DNA from: Umezawaea endophytica
Lineage (GTDB): Bacteria > Actinomycetota > Actinomycetes > Mycobacteriales > Pseudonocardiaceae
Direction of reading: 5' to 3'
Assembly: GCF_025061645.1 (NCBI RefSeq)
Contig: NZ_JANYMP010000014.1
Location: 1-64,000, forward strand
Length of the DNA: 64,000 bases
Shown here: positions 6,589 through 62,009 of the stretch, in pieces
Layout: each line of letters begins with the position of its first letter
Position numbering within the stretch: the first letter of the stretch is position 1
The notes under the pieces: model-generated
Told to the model about the DNA's origin: nothing
Seen by the model: only the letters and a program-made list of their open reading frames with translations
Databases searched by the model: none
Translations under genes and position numbers: made by a program

Positions 6589-7512
6589 TCAGACGGTCAG
6601 GACGACCTTGCCCCGGAGGTGGCCGCCGTCGAGCACCCGGTGGGCGTCGGCGACGCGCTCGAACGGGAACGTCTCCTGCACGTGGACCCGGAGCCGGCCC
6701 TGCTCGACGAGGTCGACGAGCCGTCGCAGCGCGACCGGGTCCGGGTCGACGGCGATGCCGCTGAAGCGCAGGCCCGCCGCCTCGCACCTGGCGATGAGGT
6801 CCAGGTCCTCCTCCGCGACCGCCGTCACCAGGTGCCCTCCGGGGCGGAGCACCCCGATCGACCGCTCGACGGTGTCGCCGCCGATCGTGTCGAGCACGAC
6901 GTCGACGTCGCGGACCACCTCGGTGAAGTCGACCGCCGTGTAGTCGATCACCTCGTCGGCGCCGAAACCCTCGACGAACTCCCGATCGCTCGCGGTCGTG
7001 ATCACGTGCGCGCCGAGCGCCTTCGCGATCTGGATCGCGACGTGGCCGACCCCACCGCCGCCGCCGTGGACCAGGACGCGGTCGCCCGCGGTCACGCCTG
7101 CGAGGTCCACGAGGCCCTGCCACGCCGTCAGCCCGACGACCGGCAGCGCCGCGGCCTCGACGTGCGAGAGCGACGCGGGCTTGCGCGCCAGGTGCAGCGC
7201 CGGGGCGAGGACGAGTTCGGCGTAGCCGTTGGCGGGCTTCGGGAACAGCGGCATCCCGAACACCTCGTCACCGGGCCGGAACCGCCACGTTCCCGGCGCC
7301 TCGTCGACCACGCCGCTGATGTCCCAGCCGAGGGTGAACGGCGGCTCGCCGAGCAGCGGGAACTCGCCCGAGCGCAGTCGCGCCTCCACCGGGTTCAACC
7401 CGATCGCCTCGACTCGGACGAGGACCTCGGTCGGCATCGGCCGGGGCGTCGGCGCGTCCACGACGGTGAGCACGTCGGGACCGCCGAACTCCTGCTGGGT
7501 GATGATTCGCAT
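6589..7512 (-). CDS. NADP-dependent zinc-independent MDR oxidoreductase (quinone-oxidoreductase-like)
   Basis: This 307-residue medium-chain dehydrogenase begins with the GroES-like domain (MRIITQQEFGGPDVL) and carries the Rossmann motif VHGGGGGVGHVAIQIAKALGA near residues 145-165. The structural and catalytic zinc Cys residues are absent, as in quinone oxidoreductases and enoyl reductases. The C-terminus RGKVVLTV is typical. It is divergent from the HxlR regulator at 7585, with a 72-bp shared promoter region. This arrangement usually means HxlR controls the oxidoreductase in response to electrophiles or quinones (inference). Confidence 0.85.
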   Translation of the reverse strand: MRIITQQEFGGPDVLTVVDAPTPRPMPTEVLVRVEAIGLNPVEARLRSGEFPLLGEPPFTLGWDISGVVDEAPGTWRFRPGDEVFGMPLFPKPANGYAELVLAPALHLARKPASLSHVEAAALPVVGLTAWQGLVDLAGVTAGDRVLVHGGGGGVGHVAIQIAKALGAHVITTASDREFVEGFGADEVIDYTAVDFTEVVRDVDVVLDTIGGDTVERSIGVLRPGGHLVTAVAEEDLDLIARCEAAGLRFSGIAVDPDPVALRRLVDLVEQGRLRVHVQETFPFERVADAHRVLDGGHLRGKVVLTV

Positions 7513-7584
7513 GACACTCCTGGCTCTCGGTGGGAGAACACCAGGCTAGGAATCCGACGGGAACCTCCGGGTACCTTTGGCGCC

Positions 7585-7965
7585 ATGAGCGGTTTCGCCC
7601 CCGGCGAGTGCTTCCTGGCCGACTGCCCCGGACGGCTGACGGTCGAGCTGATCGCCGACAAGTGGACGGCGGTCGTGCTCTACGGCCTCAGCCGGGGCCC
7701 GGTGCGGCACGGCGACCTGGTCGACCTGATCGGCGGCATCTCCCGCAAGGTGCTCACCCAGACGCTCCGACGGCTCGAATCGCACGGACTCGTCCGCCGC
7801 CACGCCTATGCCGAGGTGCCGCCCCGCGTCGAGTACGAGCTCACCCCGCTCGGGGCGACGCTGATCGATCCGATCCACGTGCTGACCGAGTGGGCGAGGG
7901 AGAACGGCGACGCGGTCCTCGACGCGCTCGACGCCGATCCCGAGTCGGTCGCCCGACACCGCTGA
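7585..7965 (+). CDS. HxlR-family winged-helix regulator
   Basis: This 126-residue protein carries the HxlR signature: an N-terminal Cys pair region (CFLADC), IADKWTAVVLYGL for helix 1, and the wing GISRKVLTQTLRRLESHGLVRR. Cys near residue 9 could sense electrophiles as in YodB/QorR relatives. It is transcribed divergently from the quinone-oxidoreductase-like gene. The shared 72-bp region includes CCTGG...CCAGG half sites as a weak operator candidate. The start is ATG. Confidence 0.85.
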   Translation: MSGFAPGECFLADCPGRLTVELIADKWTAVVLYGLSRGPVRHGDLVDLIGGISRKVLTQTLRRLESHGLVRRHAYAEVPPRVEYELTPLGATLIDPIHVLTEWARENGDAVLDALDADPESVARHR

Positions 7966-7969
7966 ACAC

Positions 7970-7997
7970 GTCGGTGTCCACCCCGTTCGGCACCGAC
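7970..7997. terminator. Hairpin between convergent genes
   Basis: A 7-bp perfect inverted repeat (GTCGGTG / CACCGAC) with a 14-nt loop lies in the 45-bp space between the converging HxlR gene and the beta-hydroxyacid dehydrogenase gene. It is a candidate bidirectional terminator. Confidence 0.45.
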
Positions 7998-8010
7998 CGA
8001 CCTCCGCCGG

Positions 8011-8928
8011 TCAGGTCCCGTCCGATCGGCGCGGCAGCACCTCGATGACCGCGGAGAAGTCCTTGCGTCCCAGGTCCGCCGGGCCCAGGCGGGCGTACAG
8101 CTCGCGCGCGGCGGCGGCCAGCGGCAGGGTCAGCCCGACCCCGTCGGCCGCGCTCAGCGCGAGGTCGAGGTCCTTGCGCATGAGGTCGCCCGTGAACCCC
8201 GGTCGGAAGTCGTGGTCGGCCGGGCTGTCCGCCAGCACACCCGGTACCGGTGGTCGGGTCCGCAGCGACCAGCTATCGCCGGAACCGGACGTGCTCACGT
8301 CGTACAGCAGCCGCGGATCCACGCCGAGTGCCCGTGTGAGCCGGAAACCCTCCGCCGTGGCCACCATCGAGATCCCCGCCATGACCTGGTTGGCCAGTTT
8401 GACCGTGGCGCCCATGCCCGACGCCCCGCAGTGGACGATCTTCGTGCCGAGCACGTCCAGCAGCGGGCGGGCGCGGTCCAGCACGTCGGCGTCGCCGCCG
8501 ACCATGATGGTGAGGGAGCCGTCGGCGGCTCCGGCGCTGGAACCGCTGACCGGGGCGTCGAGCATCGCCACTCCCCTGCGTTCCGCTTCGCGTGCGACGT
8601 CCCGGCTCGTCGCCGGGTCGATCGTGCTCAGGTCGACGAGGACGCTCCCGCGTGGTGCGCCGAGCAGCGCGCCGACCGGGCCGGTGGTGGCTTCCCGGAC
8701 GTGACGGCTGTTCGGCAACGCGGTGACCACGAAGTCGGCCTGCCGGGCCGCGTCGAGCGGTGAGTCCGCGCCGTGCGCCCCGGCGTCCAGCAGCGGGCGC
8801 ACGGCGGCGGGCGCGATGTCGAACACCGCGAGGTCCCAGCCCGCCGCGAGCAGCCTGCTGGCCATCGGTCGCCCCATGGTGCCCAGACCGATGAACGCCG
8901 CGCGCCGACGGCCGGTGTCAGCGGCCAT
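8011..8928 (-). CDS. Beta-hydroxyacid dehydrogenase (3-hydroxyisobutyrate / tartronate-semialdehyde family)
   Basis: This 305-residue NAD(P)-dependent dehydrogenase has the Rossmann motif GLGTMGRPMASRL near the N-terminus, the substrate-binding DAPVSGSSAGA segment and the catalytic-lysine motif G-A-T-V-K-L-A-N-Q. The family oxidises 3-hydroxyacids such as 3-hydroxyisobutyrate or glycerate. It is the last gene of the FkbH/FkbM/cupin operon and overlaps the cupin gene by 11 bp. This suggests that its substrate could be a glyceryl-derived unit made by FkbH (inference), analogous to the dehydrogenase step of hydroxymalonyl-carrier formation. Confidence 0.85.
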   Translation of the reverse strand: MAADTGRRRAAFIGLGTMGRPMASRLLAAGWDLAVFDIAPAAVRPLLDAGAHGADSPLDAARQADFVVTALPNSRHVREATTGPVGALLGAPRGSVLVDLSTIDPATSRDVAREAERRGVAMLDAPVSGSSAGAADGSLTIMVGGDADVLDRARPLLDVLGTKIVHCGASGMGATVKLANQVMAGISMVATAEGFRLTRALGVDPRLLYDVSTSGSGDSWSLRTRPPVPGVLADSPADHDFRPGFTGDLMRKDLDLALSAADGVGLTLPLAAAARELYARLGPADLGRKDFSAVIEVLPRRSDGT

Positions 8929-9313
8929 CGTCGTCGACCTGCCCGTCCAACCAGACGATCTTCCCGTAGGTGACCGCGAGGTGGGTCATGCCCGGCCCCT
9001 CCGGGGTCGCGCCGTGCCAGTGCTCCTCGTCCGGCGGGCAGGACACCGCGTCGCCCGCGCGGACGAGGACCGGGGCCTCGCCACGCGCTTGGACGTACCC
9101 CTCCCCCTCGGTCACGAACAGCAGTTGCCCGCCGGTGTGCAGGTGCCAGCCGTTGCGCGCGCCCGGTTCGAAGCGCACGAGCAGCACGCCCGCGTCGTCC
9201 GGCGAGGAGCCCGCGGGCAGCTCCCGCAGGGCGGTCGTGCCGGTGAAGTGCGCGTGGTACCGGTCCGGCAGCGGCGGGATCTCCCGCAGGTCGTCCGAGC
9301 TGATGAATTCCAC
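8918..9313 (-). CDS. Single-domain cupin protein
   Basis: This 131-residue cupin has both motifs: G-W-H-L-H-T-G-G-Q-L-L-F-V-T-E-G-E-G in motif 1, with His, His, Gln and Glu in metal-ligand positions, and C-P-P-D-E-E-H-W-H-G in motif 2. A divalent-metal oxygenase, isomerase or small-molecule binding role is possible. It sits 27 bp downstream of the FkbM-carrier gene and overlaps the dehydrogenase gene, so it belongs to the same transcript. The precise reaction is unknown. Confidence 0.8.
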   Translation of the reverse strand: MEFISSDDLREIPPLPDRYHAHFTGTTALRELPAGSSPDDAGVLLVRFEPGARNGWHLHTGGQLLFVTEGEGYVQARGEAPVLVRAGDAVSCPPDEEHWHGATPEGPGMTHLAVTYGKIVWLDGQVDDDGR

Positions 9314-9340
9314 TGTGGACTCTCCTGGTTCTGTTCGGTT

Positions 9341-10702
9341 CTAAGGGGTTCGGGTGCAGAGCGCCGCCAGCGCCGCGGCGGTCGGCGACCGGAGGAAGTC
9401 CTCCAGCCCGAGCACGTAGCCGTGCTCGTGGCGCAGGTACGAGAGCAGGCGCACGGCCAGCAGCGAGGTGCCGCCGTGCTCGAAGAAGTCCGCGGCGCCC
9501 ACGGGCGGGGCTCCCAGGGTGCGGTGCCACGCGTCCACGACCCCCGGCACCGACTCCGGCGCGACCCGCTCGGCGGGTCCGACCGGCGCTTCGGGTGGAG
9601 GTCCTGGACGGACCTCGAGGTCGACGTCCCCGGCACCGGGGAAGCGGTCCAGCGCTTGGCGGAGTCGTTGCCGCGCGGTCAGCGGGGGGATCGGCGCCGG
9701 TGCTCGTGGTCCACGTCGGACGGTCGTCCGGGGCGTCGCCGGTCGGGTGGCGTGGAGGTTGGCGAAACCCGTGCCCTCCAACGCTTCGACGTGGGTCACG
9801 TCGCAGGTGAACCCGGCGTCCTCCAGCAGTGCCACGAGAACCCGCCGGTCGCCGGTGCTGTGCACCTCCACGACGACGTTGTCGATCCGCGCCCAGTCCT
9901 CGGGGCGCAGGTGGAGCAGGATGTCCAGTTCGGCCCCCTCCGCGTCCAGCTTGACCAGGTCGACCCGGTCGACGTCGAGCAGGTCGAGCACGTCGGACAG
10001 TCGGCGGACCTCGACCGGCACGTCGATCGCGCCGCCGACCCGGTCCGCGGCGACCTGCTCGACGACGTCGGCGGTGCTGTCGTCGCCGACCGCCGCGCCG
10101 ATCGCGGCCCGGATCGCCGACCGGTCCGCGTCCGGGTCCGCCTTGAGGCCGGAGAACACGGACGCGTTCGGGTAGACGGTCATGCTGGTGCGCCCCGACT
10201 CGGCCCCGAGCGCCCAGGGCAGGCACACCACGGGGAGCGCGAGCGCGTCGACGTTGGCGACCAACGCGGCGTACGCGTCCGGCGCGGGTTCGAAGGCCAC
10301 CAGCCTGCACCCCGGCAGCCGGCGCGCCAGGAAGAGCGAGAACAGGCCGATGTTCGCGCCGACGTCCAGCACGACGGCGTCCGGCGGCAGGTCGAGGGCA
10401 CTGGGCAGGTACACCTGGTCCACCATGATCTCCTGGTGGAGGTAGGTCGTCTCGTAGCGGTTCAGCTCGGTGACGACGGTCCCGTCGGGCAGTTCGCCCG
10501 TCGCCAGTCCGCTCGGCGTCGGCGCCACCCACACGACCGCCCGCAGCCGACCGGAGGACTCGACCCGCACCTCAACGTGCTCCACGCCCTTGTTCAGAGC
10601 CAGGAACCGGCGCACCCGCGTCGCCCGGTCGGCGGACGCCGCTCGACGCCGCTCCACCGCGGCGACCAGCGCGGCGGGACCCACCTCGTGCCACCCGGTC
10701 AT
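9341..10702 (-). CDS. FkbM-family methyltransferase fused to a C-terminal carrier protein
   Basis: This 453-residue protein has an FkbM SAM-dependent methyltransferase domain (about residues 80-305, with motif I V-L-D-V-G-A-N-I-G near 111-119). A Pro/Arg-rich linker follows, then a carrier domain (about 370-453) with phosphopantetheine motif F-F-E-H-G-G-T-S-L-L, Ser near 413. The ATG overlaps the FkbH stop codon (ATGA), so the two are translationally coupled. FkbM enzymes O-methylate natural products. Here the fused carrier suggests methylation of a tethered acyl unit, plausibly the one loaded by FkbH (inference). Confidence 0.85.
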   Translation of the reverse strand: MTGWHEVGPAALVAAVERRRAASADRATRVRRFLALNKGVEHVEVRVESSGRLRAVVWVAPTPSGLATGELPDGTVVTELNRYETTYLHQEIMVDQVYLPSALDLPPDAVVLDVGANIGLFSLFLARRLPGCRLVAFEPAPDAYAALVANVDALALPVVCLPWALGAESGRTSMTVYPNASVFSGLKADPDADRSAIRAAIGAAVGDDSTADVVEQVAADRVGGAIDVPVEVRRLSDVLDLLDVDRVDLVKLDAEGAELDILLHLRPEDWARIDNVVVEVHSTGDRRVLVALLEDAGFTCDVTHVEALEGTGFANLHATRPATPRTTVRRGPRAPAPIPPLTARQRLRQALDRFPGAGDVDLEVRPGPPPEAPVGPAERVAPESVPGVVDAWHRTLGAPPVGAADFFEHGGTSLLAVRLLSYLRHEHGYVLGLEDFLRSPTAAALAALCTRTP

Positions 10703-12285
10703 CCGCCCGCTCCTTCCGCTTCCGCCTCCGCGATGGTCATGAGGAGGTGGCCGTCCGCCTGCGTGGTGATGTCGGTGGCCCGTCGCGCGAAGAAGTCGAC
10801 CGCGAGCCCGTTGCGACCGGTGGGTCGGACCAGGACCCGCGTCCGGGGATATCCGCCGCCCGCTCGGACCACGGTGGCCAGCAGCGCTTCCGCGACTCCC
10901 CGGTCGAGTGCCCGGCAGCTCATCACCAGTGCGTCGACGTGCCAGCAGCCGTCGCTCTCCGCGGCCATCGCCGCGCCCACCACGCCGTAGTCGCCGAACC
11001 GGTCGCGCAGCGAGACGACCCATCCGGCCCCGCCGTCGCGCAGCGCCGCGGTCGCCCGTGCCGGCGTCATCGTGGCGCAGGTGAACTGGTTGGTGCGGGC
11101 GGTGAGCTGTGCGATCCGCCGCCAGTGCGCGGGCTCCGCCGGGACCACCTCGATGACGGTGCCCAGTCGGGCGTTGAGCTCCTCGGGGCTGCTGGTGGCG
11201 CCGACCTCCTGCCGCCGCAACGCGTTGCCGCGGTAGCTCCGATTGCGCAGCCGGTCCTCCCTGGTGACGAAGAACCGGTCGAAGTGGGGACTGCGCCGCA
11301 AGCGCGCGAGCGAGTCCTCGCCCACCGGCAGTCGCACCACGCCGACCGAGGGCAGCGCCTCGGCGGTCTGGGCACAGGTCAGCGGGTCGTCGTCGACGAG
11401 GACGAAGCTGTCCACGCCGACGTCGAGCTCGGCGGCGAGGGAGCCCAGGTTCCGCCACTTGGGGTCCCAGTTGATCCGACGGCCGACGAAGTGCTCCGGC
11501 GTCAGCAGCAGGTCGCGGGCCCGTTCGGCGAAGACGCGGTCCACGCTCGCGGGATCGTTGCGGCTGCACAGCACCAGCAGGAACCCGGCGTCGTGCTGCT
11601 CGCGCAGGAACCGCTGCACCTGCCGGTACCCCTCGTCGATCGTCAGGTCGGCCGGGTCGAGGTCACCGCAGGCGCCGCCCCACAGGGTGTGGTCGCAGTC
11701 GACGGCGATCACCTTGCGCGGCTTTCCGCGCAGCGCGGCCACCACGCGTTCGATCCCCAGCGCGACCGCCGCGAACGCGTCGTCGGTGAACGGCACGTCG
11801 GCGAGCGCCGCCGCGTGGGGGTCGTGGGGGTCGTCGACCCCGTAGGCGCGGAACCAGTCCGCGGCCCTGACGACCGCGATCCCCTCCACCCCGGTCAGGT
11901 GGTCGACCACCTCGTCCTCCATGCCGTCGACCACGTCACCCGGCGGTTCCGGGAACACGCACACCAGCAGGTGGTTCGAGTGGCGTGCGACGAGGTCGGC
12001 GGCCGCCGCGGTCATCCACCGCAGCGCGTCCAGGGCGTCGTCGGGCGAGGAGCCCTTCGGGACCCAGTCGCCCGGTCTGGTCAGGCACGCGTTCAGGCCG
12101 GACGCGTTGTGCGCGAAGGCGCTCGTGGGGCCCAGCAGTTGCTCCGCGACCTGGCCGTAGGGCGCCGCGGTGATGGTCGACGAGAAGCCGCCCCGGTCGT
12201 TCAGGTGCTCCAGGAAGGTGATGACGGGCGTGCTCGTGAAGGTGGAGGCCACCACGACGTCGAGTCGGTCCGAGGTCTCGGCCAC
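10699..12285 (-). CDS. FkbH-like HAD-IIIC glyceryl transferase/phosphatase
   Basis: This 528-residue protein has the FkbH layout: an N-terminal segment of about 185 residues, a HAD-IIIC domain with the nucleophile motif D-C-D-H-T-L-W-G-G (residues 196-204; Asp196 and Asp198), V-D-D-D-P around 310, and a C-terminal GNAT-like domain. Characterised FkbH proteins take 1,3-bisphosphoglycerate, remove phosphate and load a glyceryl group onto a carrier protein. The next gene encodes a carrier domain, overlapping by 4 bp. The GTG start has GGGGA upstream. The usual second residue of the motif (often Leu) is Cys here. Confidence 0.85.
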   Translation of the reverse strand: MAETSDRLDVVVASTFTSTPVITFLEHLNDRGGFSSTITAAPYGQVAEQLLGPTSAFAHNASGLNACLTRPGDWVPKGSSPDDALDALRWMTAAAADLVARHSNHLLVCVFPEPPGDVVDGMEDEVVDHLTGVEGIAVVRAADWFRAYGVDDPHDPHAAALADVPFTDDAFAAVALGIERVVAALRGKPRKVIAVDCDHTLWGGACGDLDPADLTIDEGYRQVQRFLREQHDAGFLLVLCSRNDPASVDRVFAERARDLLLTPEHFVGRRINWDPKWRNLGSLAAELDVGVDSFVLVDDDPLTCAQTAEALPSVGVVRLPVGEDSLARLRRSPHFDRFFVTREDRLRNRSYRGNALRRQEVGATSSPEELNARLGTVIEVVPAEPAHWRRIAQLTARTNQFTCATMTPARATAALRDGGAGWVVSLRDRFGDYGVVGAAMAAESDGCWHVDALVMSCRALDRGVAEALLATVVRAGGGYPRTRVLVRPTGRNGLAVDFFARRATDITTQADGHLLMTIAEAEAEGAGG

Positions 12286-12362
12286 GGTTCGTCCCCTCTC
12301 TCGCGATCGGTGGCCGCGCGGGTCGACCCGGCCGCACCGGGTCGACCCGCCGACCGCGGCGG

Positions 12363-12908
12363 TCAGTGGCCGATGGTCGTGTCGATCGCGGGAAAGTCGA
12401 GCTGGGTCTCGCCGACGGAGTTGAAGTAGTTGGTGAAGGTGTTGAGGGCGACCGCGGCGACGATCTCGCCGATCTCGCCGTCGTCGTACCCGGCGGCGCG
12501 GACGGCGGCGAGGTCGTCGTCGCTGACGAAGCCCTTGGTGGAGATGACGGCGAGGGTGAACCGCAGCGCGGCCTCGACCTTCGGGTCGGTGGCGCGAGCG
12601 TGGCGGCCCGAGACGAGGTCCTCCTCGCTGAGCCCCGCCCTGGCGCCCAGGACGGTGTGGGCCGCGAGGCAGTAGCCGCACTCGTTGGCCACGGCGGTGA
12701 CGAGCGCGATCTGCTCCTGGACCGCGGCGGGCAGCCGTCCCTTGGACAGCGCGCCGCTGAAGGACAGGTAGGCGTCGAGCACGGCGGGCGAGCTGGCCAT
12801 CGCCTTCATCATGTTCGGGGTCACGCCGAGGGCGCGCTCGACCTTGCCGAGCAGCGCGCGGGCCTGGGGCTCGGCGGTGGCGGGGTCGACGACGGTGAGG
12901 CGGGGCAT
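12363..12908 (-). CDS. AhpD-like carboxymuconolactone-decarboxylase-family protein
   Basis: This 181-residue protein has the alkylhydroperoxidase signature E-C-G-Y-C-L-A-A-H, with Cys77, Cys80 and His84 as redox and proton-relay residues. Homologues reduce peroxides using a dithiol partner. The ATG is chosen because AAGGAC lies about 7 bases upstream. A perfect 13-bp palindrome sits 30 bp upstream, and the MarR regulator is divergent, so peroxide-responsive control is likely. The downstream FkbH gene begins 77 bp later, so read-through into that operon is possible. Confidence 0.85.
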   Translation of the reverse strand: MPRLTVVDPATAEPQARALLGKVERALGVTPNMMKAMASSPAVLDAYLSFSGALSKGRLPAAVQEQIALVTAVANECGYCLAAHTVLGARAGLSEEDLVSGRHARATDPKVEAALRFTLAVISTKGFVSDDDLAAVRAAGYDDGEIGEIVAAVALNTFTNYFNSVGETQLDFPAIDTTIGH

Positions 12909-12937
12909 GGGGTGTCCTTCCGGTGTTCCAATTTTGT

Positions 12938-12950
12938 TTGGCAGTGCCAA
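12938..12950. promoter_or_regulatory. Palindromic operator candidate for the AhpD-like gene
   Basis: TTGGCA-G-TGCCAA is a perfect 13-bp palindrome 30 bp upstream of the AhpD-like start codon in the divergent region shared with the MarR gene. Its sequence is unlike the AGGA/TCCT operator near catalase, so a different regulator may bind it. It is a candidate only. Confidence 0.45.
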
Positions 12951-13108
12951 CTATAAGGGTCGGAGCCGGGCCCGCAAGGGCTCGTGCGTCACGTCACAGG
13001 GACTGGTCGGGAGTGTGTTCTCCTTTGGGCACAACGACTACACGCACCACGATCAGGTGATTCCCTTGCCGGAGGCCGAGATTCGAGCCGTGGTGCGTAC
13101 CATAGAAG

Positions 13109-13127
13109 TAATGAGGAGTCCTACCTG
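13109..13127. promoter_or_regulatory. Degenerate copy of the catalase operator, upstream of marR
   Basis: TAATGAGGA-G-TCCTACCTG lies 10 bp before the MarR start codon. It matches the perfect palindrome at 15235 in 6 of 9 left-arm and 8 of 9 right-arm positions. This is consistent with autorepression by the MarR protein (inference). Confidence 0.6.
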
Positions 13128-13136
13128 AGGGGTTCG

Positions 13137-13745
13137 ATGACGGGCGACACCACCGGCGAGGCCGACCTGGATCGGCGGTTGGCGGACGCCGTCGAGCGGC
13201 TGGGGCACGGTCTGCGCTCGCTGGCCCAGCGCAGCGCCCGCGCGCAGGGCCTGTCCCCGTTGCAGCAGCAGGTGGTGCTGGCGCTGTCCTGGCAGCCCGC
13301 GGCCCGCCGTGAGGTCAACGCGCTGGCCGCGGAGTTCGACGTCACCACGCCCACCCTGTCCGACGCGGTCAGGTCGTTGGAGCACAAGGAACTGCTGACG
13401 CGGTCGCCCAGTTCCGACGGGCGCCGCAGGCTGCTCACGCTGACCGGGCGCGGGGAGGAGGTCGCCGGTGAACTGTCGACGTGGGACGAGCCCTTGCTGA
13501 CGGCGCTGGCGAAGCTGCCGGTGGCGGACCGGGCGACCACGTTGGGCAGCCTCCTGCACCTCATCGGGGACCTGCACCGCCGTGGCGTGGTGAGCGTCGT
13601 GCGGATGTGCACCACGTGCCGCTTCTTCCGGCCCGACGCGCACGAGGACCCGGCCGCGCCGCACCACTGCGACCTGCTCAGGACGCCGCTGCCGCTCGTG
13701 GAGCTGCGGACCGAGTGCCCCGAGCACGAACAGGCCGCCGTCTGA
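13137..13745 (+). CDS. MarR-family regulator with C-terminal four-Cys tail
   Basis: This 202-residue winged-helix regulator has a MarR core (about residues 10-150; recognition helix TTPTLSDAVRSLEHK, wing SSDGRRRLL). About 45 extra residues follow, holding Cys158-x2-Cys161, H-H-C178 and C194-P-E-H. Ordinary MarR proteins end near 150, so this tail is an added metal or redox module. The ATG has a GAGGGG-type ribosome site. It lies between an AhpD-like gene and catalase, and matching palindromes precede both itself and catalase. A role in peroxide or thiol stress is therefore likely. Confidence 0.8.
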   Translation: MTGDTTGEADLDRRLADAVERLGHGLRSLAQRSARAQGLSPLQQQVVLALSWQPAARREVNALAAEFDVTTPTLSDAVRSLEHKELLTRSPSSDGRRRLLTLTGRGEEVAGELSTWDEPLLTALAKLPVADRATTLGSLLHLIGDLHRRGVVSVVRMCTTCRFFRPDAHEDPAAPHHCDLLRTPLPLVELRTECPEHEQAAV

Positions 13746-19698: not shown

Positions 19699-19754
19699 GT
19701 GACTCCTCCACCGCGACTCCGCACCCGACGCGCGGCAGTCCCATCGTACTGGGG

Positions 19755-21972: not shown

Positions 21973-23652
21973 CTACGACACGGTCACCGAGTGCCGGAGG
22001 TCGTTGAGCCCGGTGGCCGCCTCCCACAGGCCGGTGTTGGCGGTCCGCACGGAGTACTCGGGCCTGCCGGGCAGCAGCGGATCGGCCAGTTCCAGCAGCA
22101 GCGCGTACGTGCCGGGGGTGAGCGAGGACGGCACGGTCACGGTCTGCGCCACGGTGTGCGCGCCCGGCAGCCACGCGCGGGGGTCGGCGGCGAGCGGGAG
22201 TCGCGTCTCCGCGCGGGTCGTGGTGTTGCGCAGCACCAGCGCCACCGTGCGCGGGTTGATCGTCGCGGCGTAGCCGTCGTTGGTGAGCCCGATCCGGACG
22301 GCGAGGCCCGAGCCGCGCGCGGCCGTGGCCGGGAAGGTGCCGTCGCGCAGCGTGAACCGGTAGCCGAGGCGGTTGGTCACGTCCGCCAGGCAGCCCCCGG
22401 CGGCCCACGACTGGAGGACGCCCTGGTGGTAGTCGGTGTTCAGGTACGTCCAGTGGAACCGCGACAGCTCACCGGTGGCCGTGGGGCAGTCCGAGCGGGG
22501 CGGGTTCGGCGCGCACGTCTCGCCGCCCATCGGCACCGTGCGGGTCTCGGCCTCCAGGTACGGGTACTCCACCGCGGTGTTCTCGTAGGTGCCGAAGTCG
22601 TCCGGGCTGGCCAGGAAGCAGTCGTTGTGGTGCCCGAGCCTGCCGCCGGCCGCGTACAGGGTGCGCTTGATCTTCGGCGTCCGGAGCTGCACGGCCCGCG
22701 TGGCGGGCAGGACGCTCAACAGCTTGTCCACCACCGCTTTGCGGTTCGCCCAGTCCGCCGAGGTGACCGTGCCCGCGTTGCCGAAGTTGCGGGTGTAGTA
22801 CCACTCGCCCCACGCGCCGACGAAGCCCGCCTGCACCACGGCGATCACGTCCGCGTTGGCCGTGAAGTACGGAGCGAGCTGGTCCAGGTGCCCCAGCACC
22901 CGGTCCTTCGGGGCGTCGTCACCGGCGTCGGACGCCGTGTAGGCGAAGCGCAGCACCAGTTTCACGCCCGCCGCGCGGGCCGCGGCGAACTGGCGGCCCA
23001 ACCGGTCCAGCGCGGTCTGGGCGATCGGCGAGGCCTTGTACTCCGCGAGGTAGAACACGCACATCACCAGCGTGACGCCCTGCGACGTCCGGTACTGGCG
23101 CAGCGCGTCGGCGGAGAAGTCGGCCTTGTCGCAGTCCTGGGTGTGGTGGTAGAGCCCGCGTTCCGGGTTGGCGATCACCTCGGTCGACGGCGGGTAGACC
23201 GGGCCGCTCGCGCCGCCGGCGTAGGTGTGGGTGACCTTGGCGGAGGTCTCGACCGGTGCCTCCACCTGGAACACCACGTCGGCGTCGTTCGGGCTGGCCG
23301 ACTCCCCGATGTCGGCCCGCTCGACCGTCCACCGGGCCGTCCCGCCCGAGGAGGTGAACGGGACCGCCTTGACCGCCGTCCACGCCCAGCCGCCGCCACC
23401 GTGCCGGTACAGGGTTCCGTTCTCCAGCAGGAAGTCCGCGCCGACCGCGCCCTGGGCGAACCCCGTGGCCGCGGCGCGGTCGACGTCCAGGTAGACCCGC
23501 GCGAACGCGGGTGTTCCCGTGTACCCGACCTGGTAGGTGACGGTCGTGGCGGTGCTGCTCACCGTCGGCCCGGTGATGGCGGCGCCCGCGGGTGTGGCGA
23601 CGACGCTGGTGAGGGCGAGCGCCATCACCAGGACTCGCACGATCTTCGGCAC
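21973..23652 (-). CDS. Secreted DUF4832/DUF4874 protein, glycosidase-like
   Basis: This 559-residue protein starts with a Sec signal peptide (cleavage near T-P-A-G-A-A, about residue 25). Next come a beta-rich domain (about 28-150), a DUF4874 TIM-barrel-like part opening N-P-E-R-G-L-Y-H-H, and a C-terminal DUF4832 beta-sandwich. Family members look like carbohydrate-active enzymes, but I know of no firm activity. The GTG has GGAGGAA upstream. It lies 62 bp downstream of the SurE gene on the same strand and may be the secreted end of the sugar-phosphate operon (inference). Confidence 0.75.
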   Translation of the reverse strand: MPKIVRVLVMALALTSVVATPAGAAITGPTVSSTATTVTYQVGYTGTPAFARVYLDVDRAAATGFAQGAVGADFLLENGTLYRHGGGGWAWTAVKAVPFTSSGGTARWTVERADIGESASPNDADVVFQVEAPVETSAKVTHTYAGGASGPVYPPSTEVIANPERGLYHHTQDCDKADFSADALRQYRTSQGVTLVMCVFYLAEYKASPIAQTALDRLGRQFAAARAAGVKLVLRFAYTASDAGDDAPKDRVLGHLDQLAPYFTANADVIAVVQAGFVGAWGEWYYTRNFGNAGTVTSADWANRKAVVDKLLSVLPATRAVQLRTPKIKRTLYAAGGRLGHHNDCFLASPDDFGTYENTAVEYPYLEAETRTVPMGGETCAPNPPRSDCPTATGELSRFHWTYLNTDYHQGVLQSWAAGGCLADVTNRLGYRFTLRDGTFPATAARGSGLAVRIGLTNDGYAATINPRTVALVLRNTTTRAETRLPLAADPRAWLPGAHTVAQTVTVPSSLTPGTYALLLELADPLLPGRPEYSVRTANTGLWEAATGLNDLRHSVTVS

Positions 23653-56072: not shown

Positions 56073-56104
56073 TTCAGTCAACACTGAAGCTATTGAGATT
56101 ACTG
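56073..56104 (+). repeat. Repeat copy A, at the 3' boundary of the DUF4011 helicase gene
   Basis: The 32-bp repeat includes the hairpin TTCAGT-CAAC-ACTGAA followed by GCTATTGAG and then ATTACTG. It overlaps the helicase stop codon. It matches copy B (62010-62041) at 28 of 32 positions and copy C at 24 of the first 25. Confidence 0.8.
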
Positions 56105-59100
56105 CACAACCACGCGACCGTCCGGATCCACTCGCAGACGTCCCGCGCGCACCCCCACCGCCAGTGCGGCGTCCAACCGCTCCGCGGCACTCGCCGTGAC
56201 CCGCTTACCACCGAAAACGGCCAGCACCTCGCGCCGCAGCTCCCCCACCGGCATCCCCGCCGCTCCCCTGGCGACCGCGACCAGCGCGTTGACCACTTCC
56301 CGCACCGGCACGTGCTCGAACGACCGCTCCACCCCCTCCGGGGTGCGCCGGTAGCCGCTCCACTCCCCCGGCCTCACCCCCACCGGCCACACGACGTCGT
56401 CCTCCACCAGCAGCCGCACCTGGGCCAGGATGGCCGTCCTGCGGGCCTCCACGACCCGGCTCAGCCCGAACGCCCCCGCGACCAGCCTGACCAGCCGGTC
56501 CACGTGCACCGGCCCCTCCGCGGCGACCACCTCCGCCACCACGGACGCCACCCGCTCCCCCGTGCCGGGCAGCCCGTCCAGCACCTCGACCGCCCCCACC
56601 GACCGGACGGGCCACGGCGCGTACGCGGGCACCACGACCGGGCCCGTGACACCGACACCGACGGACACCGGGACGGTCGCCGGGACGGTCGCCGGGACCG
56701 GCGGTTCGCGCACCGGCTCCGGCCGCACCGCGCCACCCGCCCGCACGACGGCCGCCAGCCGCTCGACCACGCCCGCCGGGTCGGCCAGCCAGTCCGGCAG
56801 CCACACCCGGCACACCGCGGGCCAGCCGAGCAACCCCTCCAACACCTCCACGGGCAGCCCGTCGCGGTCGCGCACGGTGAGCCGAGACGCCCACCCCGGC
56901 CCGTCCAGCAGCACCGCCGCGACCGGCACGTCGGGCCGCGCCGGATCGGCCAGCACCACGTCCACCTTGAACTCCGACATCCCCACGTCCATGGTCACGG
57001 CCAGCCCGGCCGCCCGCAGCGCGTCGGCGACCGAGTCGCGGTGCCGGTCCACCACGGCCCGCCACCGCGACCCCGACGGCAACGCCCCGCCCCCGGCCAT
57101 GTCCAGGTAGGTCCGCAGGTGCCGGACCCCGACCGACGACGTCTCCTCCGCCCTCAACTGCTCCGGGTCGAAGCTGGAGAACACGACCACCTGACGTCGA
57201 GCGCGCGTCACGGCCACGTTGAGCCTGCGCTCACCGCCGGTGCGGTTGAGCGGCCCGAAGTTCAGCGGCAGCACACCGCGCTCGGTGACGCTGAACGCCG
57301 TCGAGAACAGGATCACGTCGCGCTCGTCGCCCTGGACGTTCTCCAGGTTCTTCACGAACAGGCCCTCGGCGTCGTCGTCCAGCGCCTCCACGATCCGCGG
57401 GTCGTCGGCGTCGCGCAGCAGCCCTTCCACACAGGCGCGCTGCTGCTGGTTGAACGTGACGATCCCCAACGACGGCACGACGTCGGGGGAGGCGGCGAAC
57501 CGGCGGCGGACCTCGTCCACCACGGCCCGCGCCTCGACCGGGTTGGTGCGCAGCAGACCAGCGGCACCGGACCGGTGGAACGTCCCGTCCACCCGCACCA
57601 GCGACACACCGCGGTCCGGACCCGACGCGGCGGGCGCGGGGAACGACGCCAGCGCGCCGTCGTAGTAGTGGTGGTTGCTGAACGCGATCAGCGACTCGTC
57701 CTGGCTGCGGTAGTGCCACGTCAGCCGCTGCCGCTCCACCCGCGCCTGCACGCACTCGCCCAGGATCGACTCCTCGTCCTCGACCACGTCCCCGAGCTCG
57801 TCGGGCTCGGCCGTGCCGAACGCGCTCTCCGCGAACGACGTGGGCGGCATCTGCTTGCTGTCCCCAACCACCACGACCGACCGCGCCCGCCCCATCGCCC
57901 CGACCGCGTCGGCCACCCGGACCTGCGACGCCTCGTCGAACACCACGATGTCGAACAACCCGGCCGTGGCCGGGAAGAACCGCGCCACCGAGTCCGGGCT
58001 GACCAGCACGCACGGCAGGGCACCCGTGACCAGGTCACCGAACTCCGTCATCAGCTCCCGCACCCGCAGCCCGCCGCGCTGCCTGCCGAGCTGCCGCCGC
58101 AGCAGGCCGACCCGACCACCGGTCGCGTCCGGGTCGAACGACCGCGACCGCACCACCTGGGCCGGAACCGCCGTCCTCAGGTGCTCCCGCACCATCCCCG
58201 ACACCCCGACGAACCGGCTGATCGCCCGGTCCTGCGCGGCCTGGTCGAACGACGCCAGCCCCGTCGCGCGCCTCCGCTCCCCCACCGACGCCTCCGCCAG
58301 CCCCAGCTCGAACGCGCGCGACGCGTCGTCCGGGCTCAGCCCGCCCCGCAGCAGCAACGCCCTGGCGTCGTCCAGGTGCTCGTCGCGCAGCGGCTCCACG
58401 TGGGCGAGCAGCGCCACCCACCGCCGCAGCGACCCGTCGTCACCGATCTGCCGCTCCCCCGCGCTCGCCGCCCACGTGGCGACCAGACCCGCCTCCCCGG
58501 CCCAGGCCGCGATCGGCTCGGCCCCCACGCCGCAGGCCTTGGCGAACTCCGCGACCCTCGCCGCCGCCGCGGCGACCGGCACCGGGTCCAGCACGGCGGA
58601 CGACTCCAGGAAGGCCCTCAGCGGCCCCGCGAACCGCGCCCGCGCCCGCTCGGCCGGGTCGACCACGGAACCGGCCCACCGCAGCCACTCCACCCGGCGC
58701 ACCACCACCTCCCGGCCGGCGGGCGCGAACGGGCTCCACCCCGGCGGCAGCACCAGACCGGGCACCTGCCGGACGGCCGCCGCCAGCCGGTCGACGCCGT
58801 CGCGCAGCGCCACCAGCTCACCGGTCAGCTCGACCACCTGCTTCGGCTTCACCCGCGCACCGGGCCGCAGCACCCCCGCCAGCCGCTCGCCCACGGCCGC
58901 CAACCGCCCGCGCCGCCCCCAGAACCCCGACCCCGCCGCCGCACGGGCCGCCGCGTGCAGCTCACCCACCGGCAGGTCCAGCGCCGCGGGCGTGACCACG
59001 TCCAGACCGGGGTGGTCCAGCACCGCGAACTCCGCCACCCGCCGCCGCACCCCGTCCACCGCCGCGGCCCACCGCTCGGTCCGCGTCTCGTCCAGCACCG

Positions 59101-61801
59101 CGAGCGGCACCCGCTCCCCGACCAGCGCCGCCAGCACCCGCAGGTCCTCCGACTCCCGCACCGCCGCCAACACCGCCAGGCGCGGCAACGCCCGCAGCGC
59201 CATGTCCAGCCGACTGGCCGCCACCAGCACGTCCGGCACGACCACCGACCGGTCGTCCACGAACGCCCACGGGTGGTCCGGACCGGGCCGCGCCGGGTAC
59301 GCCACGTCCGGCAGCTCGCCGAACAGCTTCCGCAGCCGCCGCACGGCGTCCGGCGACGCCGTGCTCAGGAACGCGGTCGACACGGGCATCGCGGGCACGT
59401 CCGCACCGACCGCCAGGGCCGCGTCCCGCGCCGAGTACAGCGACAACCCGACCGGGTTCCGGTCGTGCAACTGGTAGGCGTACCTGGTCAGCGCCCGCCG
59501 CGCGGACCTCAGCTCGTCCAACCGCGCCGACAGCCCCTGCTGGTCCGGCACGACCACGTGCTCCAGCGCCCGCGCCACCTGCGCCCGCACCGCCACCGGC
59601 GAACTGGCCCTGTCGTGCAGGTCCAACGTCAACGGCCCCATGCCGACCTCGTCCAACCGCCGCCGCACCACGTCCAGCGCCGCCCGCTTCTCGGCGACGA
59701 ACAGCACCCGTTTCCCCTCGGCCACCGCCCGCACCAGCAGGTTCGTGATCGTCTGCGACTTCCCCGTGCCCGGCGGCCCCTCCAGCACGAACGTCCGCCC
59801 CGCCACGGCCTCCGCGACCGCCCTGAGCTGCGAGGCGTCCGCGGGCACCGGGCACCGCTCGGCCAACTCCTCCAGGTCGTGCACCGCCGACGTCGTCACC
59901 GGGTCCTCGAACACCTCTGCCGGCCGGTGCACCAGGTGCGCCACCAGCGGGTTCTCCGCGAACGTCGCCCAGTTCTCGTCCAGGTCCTTCCACAGCCGGA
60001 ACTTCGCGAACTGCAACACCGCCAGGTCCGCCGTTGGCTCCACCCGGTACGGCAGGCCGCGCTCCGCGATGGCCGACCGGGTCGCCTCGAACGCCGCGTC
60101 CAGGTCGATCCCCGCGTCGTCCGCCGCGGGCTCCGCCAGGCCGGGCACCTCCAGCCCGTGCACCTGCCGCAGCTTCTCCACCAGGCAGTAGTTCGGCGTC
60201 GACGCCCCAGCCTCGTCCAGCGACAGCCGGTACCGACCGCCACGACCGGACGGCGTGAGCACCACGGGCACCAGCACCAGCGGCGACCGCAGCGGCCTGC
60301 CGTCCAGCTCCCACACCAGCGACCCCAGCGCCAGGTACAGGTTGTTCGCCCCGGTCTCCTCCACGATCGTCCGCGCCTTGTGCGCCAGGCCCCGCAACCG
60401 CGACCAGTAGGCCGCCTCCGTCACCTCCGCGTACACCGACCGCCGCGACACCAGCAGCTCCGCGAGCTGCTCCGGCGGCAGCTCCCGACCCGTCCGCACA
60501 CCCCGTTCCCGGTCCACCGCCGCCAGGTCGTCCGCCGCGCGCAGCACCACCGCCGCACCCTGGTGCAGCAGGTCCTCCAGCGTCCCGAGCCGCTCCCCCG
60601 GCACCGCCAGCGACAGCCCCGACCGCGCGGTGAAGTTCACCAGCCGGTTGCGCAGGCTCAGGTCCAGCAGCGCGTTCTTCCACCGCGTCACCCTCGGCGG
60701 CGCCGCCACCGCGTGCCGCGGGCCCGTGCTCGGCCGGGCGACGCTCGCCACCTCCGGCCAGAACCGCGCGGCGGGCGTGTACACGCTGACCACGACGTTC
60801 CCGCCGATGTCCCTGGTGCGCGCGGGCAGCGGCACGATCCGGTCGCGCCGCGCCTGGCGCACGTCGACCACCCCGAGCACCCGCTCCAGACCGCCGGTCA
60901 GGTACTCGTCGTACGGCGGCCGGTGGGTCTCCTCGAACGGCCGGGCCACCACCGCGAACGTCGTCTCCACCAGCCTGATCCGGTCGAGGTCGATCCGGTT
61001 GACCACGTCCGCCACGTCGGTCTGCGCGGTGCCGTCGAGCGACGACTCCTCCCGCCAGTAGCCGAGGAACGCGTGCCCCTCCACCAGCCAGAGCAGCGAG
61101 TTGACGCCCGCCTGCTCCAGCACCGCCGCCATCACCACCACCAGGTCGAGCGGGGTGGCGACCCGGTCCAGCAGCACCTCCCCCGGCGTCCGCACCTCCT
61201 GCCCGACGTCGGCCCAGCTCGCGGGCGGCTCGGCGGACCGGATCCCGCGGGCCCTCAGCACGTCGTAGACCGCCCGCACGATCTCGTCGACCCGTTCCGG
61301 CCCCGCCTGGTAGCCCTGGAGCGCCGGGCTGCCCGTGCTCGCGAGCAGCCGGTCCGCGACGTGCCCCATCAGGTCCACCACCGCCGGGTGGTTCGGCATC
61401 ACGTGCGCCGCCAGCATCTCCAGGCCCAGCGAGAGCGGGCGCGCCAGCCACTGGTGCGCCGCCAGCACCCGCACCCGCGCGGACGCCTCCGCCCGCCGCA
61501 CCCCACCGACCTCGACCCAGACCCGGATCGTGCCCGGCCGCTGCTCCCCGACCAGCAGCATCGCCGCCGGGTCCAGCACCAACCGCAGGTCGGTCACCAC
61601 CGTCGGCCGCCCACCGGCCAGGTCCACCGTCCGGCTGTGCACCTCCGACAACGGCCCGGTCGCGTCCCCGATGTCGAACCGCAGCACCGCACCCTGGACG
61701 TCCCGCGGCACGCCGTCGACGGTGACGGCGCCGATCACCGAGATCCCGTTGTGCGCCATCGCGTAGCTGACCACCGACGCCGCTCCGAGGGTCACGGACA
61801 T
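56099..61801 (-). CDS. DUF4011-SF1 helicase-Vsr-like nuclease-DUF3320 protein (Hhe-like)
   Basis: This protein of about 1,900 residues has an N-terminal region of about 350. The DUF4011 signature W-K-N-A-L-L-D-L-S-L-R-N-R-L-V-N-F follows near 375. A split SF1 helicase comes next: Walker A P-P-G-T-G-K-S-Q-T near 670, F-D-E-A-S-Q near 1280, G-D-S-K-Q-M-P, and V-A-V-T-R-A-R near 1530. A Vsr/MTES_1575-like nuclease (about 1590-1680) and DUF3320 end it. The ATG at 61801 has GAGGA upstream and is preferred over GTG 61864. The architecture resembles the Hhe antiphage protein (recalled). Confidence 0.85.
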   Translation of the reverse strand: MSVTLGAASVVSYAMAHNGISVIGAVTVDGVPRDVQGAVLRFDIGDATGPLSEVHSRTVDLAGGRPTVVTDLRLVLDPAAMLLVGEQRPGTIRVWVEVGGVRRAEASARVRVLAAHQWLARPLSLGLEMLAAHVMPNHPAVVDLMGHVADRLLASTGSPALQGYQAGPERVDEIVRAVYDVLRARGIRSAEPPASWADVGQEVRTPGEVLLDRVATPLDLVVVMAAVLEQAGVNSLLWLVEGHAFLGYWREESSLDGTAQTDVADVVNRIDLDRIRLVETTFAVVARPFEETHRPPYDEYLTGGLERVLGVVDVRQARRDRIVPLPARTRDIGGNVVVSVYTPAARFWPEVASVARPSTGPRHAVAAPPRVTRWKNALLDLSLRNRLVNFTARSGLSLAVPGERLGTLEDLLHQGAAVVLRAADDLAAVDRERGVRTGRELPPEQLAELLVSRRSVYAEVTEAAYWSRLRGLAHKARTIVEETGANNLYLALGSLVWELDGRPLRSPLVLVPVVLTPSGRGGRYRLSLDEAGASTPNYCLVEKLRQVHGLEVPGLAEPAADDAGIDLDAAFEATRSAIAERGLPYRVEPTADLAVLQFAKFRLWKDLDENWATFAENPLVAHLVHRPAEVFEDPVTTSAVHDLEELAERCPVPADASQLRAVAEAVAGRTFVLEGPPGTGKSQTITNLLVRAVAEGKRVLFVAEKRAALDVVRRRLDEVGMGPLTLDLHDRASSPVAVRAQVARALEHVVVPDQQGLSARLDELRSARRALTRYAYQLHDRNPVGLSLYSARDAALAVGADVPAMPVSTAFLSTASPDAVRRLRKLFGELPDVAYPARPGPDHPWAFVDDRSVVVPDVLVAASRLDMALRALPRLAVLAAVRESEDLRVLAALVGERVPLAVLDETRTERWAAAVDGVRRRVAEFAVLDHPGLDVVTPAALDLPVGELHAAARAAAGSGFWGRRGRLAAVGERLAGVLRPGARVKPKQVVELTGELVALRDGVDRLAAAVRQVPGLVLPPGWSPFAPAGREVVVRRVEWLRWAGSVVDPAERARARFAGPLRAFLESSAVLDPVPVAAAAARVAEFAKACGVGAEPIAAWAGEAGLVATWAASAGERQIGDDGSLRRWVALLAHVEPLRDEHLDDARALLLRGGLSPDDASRAFELGLAEASVGERRRATGLASFDQAAQDRAISRFVGVSGMVREHLRTAVPAQVVRSRSFDPDATGGRVGLLRRQLGRQRGGLRVRELMTEFGDLVTGALPCVLVSPDSVARFFPATAGLFDIVVFDEASQVRVADAVGAMGRARSVVVVGDSKQMPPTSFAESAFGTAEPDELGDVVEDEESILGECVQARVERQRLTWHYRSQDESLIAFSNHHYYDGALASFPAPAASGPDRGVSLVRVDGTFHRSGAAGLLRTNPVEARAVVDEVRRRFAASPDVVPSLGIVTFNQQQRACVEGLLRDADDPRIVEALDDDAEGLFVKNLENVQGDERDVILFSTAFSVTERGVLPLNFGPLNRTGGERRLNVAVTRARRQVVVFSSFDPEQLRAEETSSVGVRHLRTYLDMAGGGALPSGSRWRAVVDRHRDSVADALRAAGLAVTMDVGMSEFKVDVVLADPARPDVPVAAVLLDGPGWASRLTVRDRDGLPVEVLEGLLGWPAVCRVWLPDWLADPAGVVERLAAVVRAGGAVRPEPVREPPVPATVPATVPVSVGVGVTGPVVVPAYAPWPVRSVGAVEVLDGLPGTGERVASVVAEVVAAEGPVHVDRLVRLVAGAFGLSRVVEARRTAILAQVRLLVEDDVVWPVGVRPGEWSGYRRTPEGVERSFEHVPVREVVNALVAVARGAAGMPVGELRREVLAVFGGKRVTASAAERLDAALAVGVRAGRLRVDPDGRVVVQ

Positions 61802-62009
61802 GGGCGGATCGTCCTCGGACTGCACGCGCGGCTCCCTGCTCGACTCGGTGCGCCGACCGACCACGCGGCCTGACGAGCCGATCGACTCGGATTCGACCGG
61901 AACGGCGTCAGCGTTACACCGTCGTCGTGGGTGTTCGGTGAGGACGGAGCGCCGGTTCGTCTCCAGCGGGTTTGTGGTCTTTGGTCGCGACCACTCCTGG
62001 ATGGTTTAA

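Follow-up and report, generated by a model that had tools for sequence, protein, structure and literature searches.

A rare four-gene FkbH cassette in Umezawaea endophytica, a candidate unit for carrier-bound C3 chemistry away from assembly lines

Glyceryl loading by FkbH proteins is, in the described systems consulted here, a service step for polyketide synthase (PKS) or nonribosomal peptide synthetase (NRPS) lines. In the 2-O-methylglyceric acid 3-O-sulfate starter FkbH loads glycerate, which is then methylated and sulfated by a set of O-methyltransferase, FkbH, peptidyl carrier protein (PCP) and sulfotransferase domains (PMC10143770, PMC13122637). The window considered here, a 64,000-nucleotide stretch of Umezawaea endophytica DNA, carries four adjacent genes, hereafter the cassette, which encode an FkbH protein, an FkbM methyltransferase fused to a carrier, a cupin and a dehydrogenase. 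Like the aeruginosin-type loading modules (varlaxin, suomilide, dysinosin; PMC10143770, PMC8609519, PMC13122637), the cassette combines FkbH, a methyltransferase and a PCP that would act on a glycerate unit, which in those modules is thought to derive from 1,3-bisphosphoglycerate, as we propose for the cassette. The aeruginosin-type domains, however, sit within an NRPS and are followed by sulfation and peptide assembly, whereas the cassette has no NRPS in its vicinity, keeps FkbH separate, fuses FkbM to the carrier and adds a dehydrogenase and a cupin. The set of methyltransferase, FkbH and PCP that marks O-methylglyceryl loading was found, while its NRPS context was not; the likeness between the two methyltransferases is one of proposed role.

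Methoxymalonyl-acyl carrier protein (ACP) operons (bafilomycin BafAI-AV, PMC3679948; tetromadurin mad11-15, PMC7489565) share with the path proposed for the cassette FkbH loading, C3 oxidation and O-methylation on a carrier, the primary alcohol (C3) of glyceryl-ACP being oxidised to 2-hydroxy-3-oxopropionyl-ACP (PMC7489565). These operons supply a PKS and rely on a 3-hydroxyacyl-CoA dehydrogenase and a flavin adenine dinucleotide (FAD) acyl-CoA dehydrogenase, together with a free-standing ACP and a separate O-methyltransferase. The cassette, by contrast, has an oxidase from the beta-hydroxyacid dehydrogenase family and a cupin, and lacks the second oxidation enzyme. A plain methoxymalonyl-ACP operon was rejected on three grounds: the dehydrogenase matches PF03446/PF14833 rather than the 3-hydroxyacyl-CoA dehydrogenase, no FAD acyl-CoA dehydrogenase occurs among the four genes and two scanned neighbours, and no PKS is adjacent among the ketosynthase matches listed. 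An earlier note on this DNA, made from the sequence alone, had taken the methoxymalonyl pathway as precedent; the comparison holds for the shared steps, whereas the closest precedent is the aeruginosin-type O-methylglyceryl starter module. The cassette dehydrogenase is of another family than the first oxidation enzyme of methoxymalonyl pathways, and an acyl-CoA dehydrogenase is lacking among the four genes. The tetronate glycerate-utilisation operon (mad7, 8, 16, 17, 18; PMC7489565) likewise has an FkbH and a carrier forming glyceryl-S-carrier, and was set aside because the four genes include none for a FabH-like protein, an acyltransferase or a dehydratase. The same note knew of no described pathway with this set, and none was found in open-access full text, which leaves subscription papers mostly uncovered: nothing was returned on FkbH together with FkbM and glyceryl, FkbH with FkbM yielded FK506/ascomycin work and one Streptomyces genome rather than this set, and FkbH was nowhere paired with a 3-hydroxyisobutyrate dehydrogenase. 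Judged by its predicted proteins, the cassette is a rare, compact variant of known glyceryl-carrier chemistry.

The genes are read in the order FkbH, FkbM-carrier, cupin, dehydrogenase on the minus strand, from 12285 to 8011, and the features of the locus are as follows.

10699-12285, minus strand: FkbH-type glyceryl transferase/phosphatase, 528 amino acids, TIGR01686 match
9341-10702, minus strand: FkbM methyltransferase fused to a C-terminal PCP-type carrier, 453 amino acids, TIGR01444 and PF00550 matches
8918-9313, minus strand: small metal-type cupin, 131 amino acids, PF07883 match
8011-8928, minus strand: beta-hydroxyacid dehydrogenase, 3-hydroxyisobutyrate-dehydrogenase-like, 305 amino acids, PF03446, PF14833 and TIGR01692 matches
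12286-12362, minus strand: strong hairpin by folding energy in the interval between an AhpD-like gene and the FkbH gene, a possible transcription boundary

All four genes were found where the earlier note had placed them, every family assignment being backed by model scores, and its description of their junctions proved accurate: the sole carrier of the cassette is fused to FkbM and coupled to FkbH by a real ATGA overlap (10702-10699), and the other two genes follow tightly, the cupin gene after a gap of 27 bases and the dehydrogenase gene with an 11-base overlap. This layout supports a predicted operon-like unit. A consensus scan for a sigma-70-like promoter found none, and an Rfam scan of window 7000-13500 found no family.

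We propose, tentatively and at somewhat less than an even balance, that the four genes form a self-contained unit, inherited as a whole, for C3 chemistry on its own carrier in four steps. In the first, FkbH would take D-1,3-bisphosphoglycerate, its HAD domain would remove the phosphate, and Cys457 would relay the glyceryl unit to the phosphopantetheine arm that Ser413 bears in the FkbM-carrier protein. The FkbM domain would then methylate a glyceryl hydroxyl, most likely that at C2, giving 2-O-methylglyceryl-S-carrier. In the third step the dehydrogenase, with NAD+, would oxidise the C3 alcohol to a methoxymalonate-semialdehyde-type thioester or, after hydrolysis, to the free acid; the family oxidises the primary alcohol of 3-hydroxyisobutyrate (CH2OH-CH(R)-CO), and the equivalent C3 alcohol is therefore proposed as substrate. 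Finally, and this is a guess, the metal cupin might cleave a C-C bond of the aldehyde or beta-dicarbonyl, catalyse an addition to it or tautomerise it. The sequence establishes that the four predicted proteins are present, intact, in this order and inherited together, and glyceryl loading and methylation are predictions well supported by the named families to which the proteins belong. The C3 oxidation is plausible from fold and context, while both the cupin reaction and the exit of the product from the carrier are guesses.

A matching four-gene set, in the same order and relative strand and with tight spacing in all three cassettes, occurs in Umezawaea tangerina DSM 44720 (G001) and in Actinokineospora sp. 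NBRC 105648 (G075). Protein identities of the FkbH, FkbM-carrier, cupin and dehydrogenase are 76, 79, 84 and 79% to U. tangerina, and 50, 50, 60 and 60% to the Actinokineospora copy, whose neighbourhood is unrelated: beyond the cassette, the 20 kb compared contained no called gene in common with the window (E <= 1e-10; genes outside the window's operon were called by a simple script that may miss or misplace some). The recurrence of this gene order in two further genomes, one of them outside the genus, makes the arrangement more than chance; the earlier note had staked its proposal on co-occurrence in relatives, and the order is indeed conserved across two genera, away from assembly lines. FkbH matches were present in 19 of 390 genomes of the family at E <= 1e-60, and at E <= 1e-80 in 8 of 394 genomes of a class sample and 7 of 397 of an order sample (own genome included in each; the samples overlap). 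FkbH proteins of at least 50% identity were limited to U. endophytica, U. tangerina and Actinokineospora, with none further in the class and order samples, and the cassette was present in all three. The other FkbH loci, mostly seen with about 1.5 kb of flank and in six cases with up to about 10 kb, held no cupin or dehydrogenase relative. A scan of named genomes with two exact peptide patterns, which divergent copies would escape, returned 119 stretches with three relatives, namely the U. tangerina and Actinokineospora copies and a Streptomyces FkbH of 37% identity that lacks the other three cassette genes; among plasmid records, 47 had an FkbM-type match and none covered 80% of the query.

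This rare and patchy occurrence (two of three Umezawaea genomes examined, and one genome of a second genus), together with the lack of a nearby assembly line, is what a decaying, functionless remnant of a methoxymalonyl-ACP or methylglyceryl-loading cluster might also leave. We consider such a remnant very improbable, as all four frames are open, the catalytic positions survive in copies whose proteins diverge by as much as 50%, the third-position G+C of the four genes (0.90-0.95) is in line with coding DNA of the genome, for instance the AhpD neighbour (0.98), and neither the dehydrogenase nor the cupin belongs to the methoxymalonyl set. The overall G+C of the cassette genes (72.7-74.0%) is close to the gene mean of 72.8%, and composition gave no sign of recent foreign origin.

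The limits of the unit could be drawn from the Umezawaea genomes. U. endophytica and U. tangerina share homologous DNA, interrupted by small breaks, that starts at window position 19713, covers the catalase, MarR and AhpD-like genes as well as the cassette, and stops at 8008, three bases beyond the dehydrogenase gene (8011). In a third Umezawaea genome (G002) the left flank is matched as far as 12382, discontinuously and at 79-92% DNA identity, but FkbH is absent at E <= 1e-60 and the AhpD-like gene is not followed by any cassette gene. Because the homology ends at the dehydrogenase and G002 keeps the left flank without the cassette, four genes, not five, look like the unit that was gained or lost, and on this comparison they look like an inherited unit. 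The right flanks of the three genomes were unmatched over the stretch compared, except for 74 bases at 78% between U. endophytica and U. tangerina, far from the cassette. The AhpD-like neighbour (12363-12908) was rejected as a fifth member: it is present in both other Umezawaea genomes (92-94%), including the cassette-free G002, it does not lie beside the Actinokineospora cassette, the sole match in that genome being of 28% and on another contig, and a hairpin separates it from FkbH. That hairpin (12286-12362) has a 15-bp stem and a folding energy of -51.2 kcal/mol over 84 nt (z -3.1); it is without a T-run, so that the terminator scan did not call it. The corresponding interval of U. tangerina holds a strong hairpin of different sequence (z -6.1), and no strong hairpin follows the AhpD-like gene in G002 (z +0.7). 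A transcription boundary between AhpD and FkbH is thus possible. At the other end, an HxlR-type regulator (window 7585-7965, plus strand) is convergent with the end of the cassette and finds no DNA match in the right flanks of U. tangerina and G002; it probably lies outside the unit.

The FkbH protein scored 211 bits against TIGR01686 (cut-off 146.65) and had no Pfam match at E <= 0.001. Its layout comprises an N-terminal alpha/beta domain, a HAD-IIIC phosphatase domain and a C-terminal GNAT-like acyltransferase domain with Cys457, which we take to be the acyl acceptor that holds the glyceryl unit. The FkbH alignment comprised 37 rows (one for the window and 36 distinct extracts, among them the window locus again and partial extracts). 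Of its ungapped rows, all 36 had identical residues at D196, D198, T200, S241 and K276, D299 was found in 35 of 36, and Cys457 in every one of 35, which supports the prediction that the catalytic positions inspected are in place. The structure model is modest (pLDDT 67, pTM 0.40) and was used for domain type only; Foldseek returned 3slr, an FkbH-like phosphatase, and GNAT acetyltransferases as top matches, and Cys457 was modelled in a loop of pLDDT below 50 that precedes a helix of the GNAT-like domain. According to the corramycin paper (PMC10099666), activation of D-3-phosphoglycerate has been demonstrated for the vioprolide FkbH domain, and the phosphate donor may therefore differ among FkbH systems.

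The partner protein consists of a methyltransferase (residues 113-298 by Pfam match) and a carrier (388-448), which scored 108.3 bits against TIGR01444 fkbM_fam (cut-off 37.7) and 40.4 bits against PF00550 (cut-off 20.8), respectively. The S-adenosylmethionine-binding motif VVLDVGANIG and the phosphopantetheine Ser413, which lies in GGTSLLAV, are kept in all three cassettes, and the carrier domain resembles NRPS PCPs. A tree of 24 FkbM rows placed the cassette proteins (six rows for three distinct proteins) together with four FkbH-linked FkbM domains at support 95/94; three of these are fused to both FkbH and a carrier (G012, G151, G201), and the gene of the fourth (G024) follows an FkbH gene. 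Outside this clade, one FkbM gene (L053) lies about 3 kb from an FkbH gene, in a locus likewise fetched for FkbH, and the five out-of-clade loci read with wider flanks (L026-L030) contained no FkbH. The grouping of the cassette FkbM with FkbH-fused or FkbH-adjacent domains points to O-methylglyceryl-S-carrier, the species proposed for aeruginosin-type starters, rather than to the methoxymalonyl operon, and this species is most likely the start of the predicted pathway. The three fused loading modules, in which FkbM shares its polypeptide or frame with FkbH and the carrier, differ from the cassette in that FkbM is placed between the N-terminal part of FkbH and its HAD part, and in that they lie within PKS/NRPS genes; the order in G151 (PKS_DH - FkbM - FkbH - carrier) is that given for OocJ of oocydin A (DH-MT-FkbH-ACP; PMC4552970).

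Several loci seen along the way carry related arrangements. PKS/NRPS-type loaders with FkbM between the N-terminal and HAD parts of FkbH, or in a gene adjoining FkbH, were noted at these places:

L056, 8932-12495
L057, 7729-14565
L031/L042
L100, 7645-12052

Locus L028 (8772-10157, G004) encodes a 461-amino-acid FkbM protein whose match to the FkbM-carrier extends into the carrier region, with, by eye, an acyl-CoA dehydrogenase-like gene and an adenylation-carrier protein gene as neighbours. Another recurrent FkbH arrangement was seen in L053, L054 and L055, where stand-alone FkbH genes (526-562 amino acids) lie directly downstream of a small gene (87-114 amino acids, possibly a carrier), and a gene of 480-494 amino acids with a similar N-terminus lies nearby in all three.

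The dehydrogenase matches PF03446 and PF14833 and scored 305.1 bits against TIGR01692 HIBADH (cut-off 291.6); it is the only match in its own genome at E <= 1e-50 (57 scored candidates). The substrate contacts of 3-hydroxyisobutyrate dehydrogenase, from docking and an earlier crystal structure, are Ser122, Gly123, Lys171 and Asn175, with Lys171 and Asn175 placed at the carboxylate; motif 2 is DAPVSGG, and motif 3 contains the catalytic Lys and ends in N or Q (PMC3642240). The cassette enzyme keeps the Ser, the Gly and the catalytic Lys, the last (Lys177) in all three copies, while the substrate-site motifs are changed, SGS standing for SGG and KLANQ for KxxNN: Ser130, the seventh residue of motif 2, and Gln181 are present in all three cassette copies, against Gly and Asn in five of five non-cassette relatives. 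These changes are suggestive of specialisation and would fit an altered acyl group such as a thioester. Its structure model, at pLDDT 65 and with much of the C-terminal half below 50, was too poor to be used.

The cupin scored 52.9 bits against PF07883 (cut-off 27.2), and its closest solved structures are TM1010 (2f4p) and the 4bif/4uxa group, the latter being the Mn cupin hydroxynitrile lyase of Granulicella tundricola. H57, H59, Q63 and H98, presumably the metal ligands, are invariant in the three cassettes and align with the 4bif/4uxa proteins; as the same residues occur in four aligned non-cassette cupins, they identify the protein as a metal cupin without narrowing its activity further. 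Such an enzyme could plausibly take a beta-oxo acyl unit as substrate. Against the NCBIfam model of the (R)-mandelonitrile lyase cupin (NF049940) the score stayed below the cut-off (105.3 against 140 bits).

Should only FkbH and the FkbM-carrier form a pathway, the cupin and dehydrogenase might be a downstream detoxification or catabolic pair for a reactive aldehyde or for free glycerate-type acids. The score of the dehydrogenase above the curated 3-hydroxyisobutyrate dehydrogenase cut-off and the lack of a pairing of this enzyme with FkbH in open-access full text speak for such a pair, as do the other settings of the cupins reported alongside FkbH: in aeruginosins a cupin acts as isomerase for the Choi moiety, and the cupin-like OocP is required for oocydin A, whose cluster also has an FkbH module (PMC4552970). 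We nonetheless regard it as improbable, given that both genes stand in the conserved block in the same order in two genera, that the Umezawaea homology ends with the dehydrogenase, and that their identities to the Actinokineospora copy (60/60%, against 50/50% for FkbH and FkbM-carrier) fit joint inheritance.

A number of points weigh against the four-step cassette that we favour. It has no thioesterase, reductase, condensation domain or ketosynthase to account for release, and activity along the whole pathway is a prediction. FkbM may act on either the 2-OH or the 3-OH, and methylation may precede or follow oxidation; were FkbM to methylate the 3-OH, the C3 oxidation would be impossible on the same unit. 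The dehydrogenase is still above the curated 3-hydroxyisobutyrate dehydrogenase cut-off, and Q at its position 181 is allowed (N or Q) by the published motif (PMC3642240). For OocJ, the best-described module with the FkbM-FkbH fusion domain order, the authors themselves assume a lack of function (PMC4552970). The FkbM clade is subject to a selection effect, L047 and L050 having been fetched via FkbH and being linked to it by construction, so that L012 and L013, fetched through FkbM alone and FkbH-linked too, are the only unbiased sign. Lastly, the set was found in three genomes only.

The distance of the cassettes from assembly-line genes bears on the fate of the product. None of the 73 condensation-domain matches of U. 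endophytica (full list) falls on the 264,203-base contig of the window, and of the 55 in U. tangerina the nearest lies about 252 kb from the cassette. Ketosynthase matches amount to 71 in U. endophytica, 72 in U. tangerina and 62 in Actinokineospora; among the roughly 150 listed of these 205, none was on the window contig or on contig 13 of G075, and the nearest in U. tangerina was about 148 kb away. In Actinokineospora, 36 kb fetched around the cassette held no called gene above 738 amino acids, condensation domains not having been searched there. The absence of PKS and NRPS genes, on which the earlier note had relied, therefore stands for condensation domains on the whole contig and for ketosynthases among the matches listed. 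Three further FkbH genes of U. endophytica lie about 3 kb from a condensation domain (C24), between ketosynthases (C33) and about 7 kb from a condensation domain (C3), and the cassette FkbH is the sole one of the four without PKS/NRPS neighbours.

A stand-alone pathway, horizontally or differentially inherited, which would lead without any PKS or NRPS from 1,3-bisphosphoglycerate over a dedicated FkbM-PCP to a small methoxy-C3 or methoxy-C2 compound in free form, is possible, though we consider it rather doubtful; its product would be methoxymalonate semialdehyde or a cupin cleavage product, the dehydrogenase and cupin acting on the carrier-bound or just-released acyl unit. As no release enzyme is encoded in the cassette, delivery in trans to a distant assembly line has also to be considered. 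In that case an (O-methyl)glyceryl or methoxy-semialdehyde unit would be handed over to a PKS or NRPS as starter or extender, in keeping with the PCP-like carrier, with the service of assembly lines by the described FkbH systems consulted and with the wealth of condensation-domain and ketosynthase matches in these genomes. We hold such a feeder to be somewhat unlikely, considering how far the cassettes lie from assembly lines, their inheritance or loss as a four-gene unit, and the placement of the three other FkbH genes among PKS/NRPS genes. If true, the four-step path would constitute a minimal carrier-tethered C3 pathway, present in two genera and small enough for full in vitro reconstitution; it would also put to the test whether a dehydrogenase of the 3-hydroxyisobutyrate type can stand in for the usual enzyme that oxidises glyceryl-S-carrier, and would place a cupin of the TM1010/4bif group in a biosynthetic pathway.

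Elsewhere in the window, a gene on the minus strand (56102-61864) encodes a protein of 1921 amino acids with DUF4011, an SF1-type helicase (AAA_11, AAA_12), an MTES_1575 nuclease domain and DUF3320, which scored 870.6 bits against PDC-S37 and 394.3 bits against Hhe of PADLOC and is a candidate anti-phage defence protein. A second one (21976-23652, minus strand) encodes a DUF4874 and DUF4832 protein of 559 amino acids with, by eye, a putative signal peptide.

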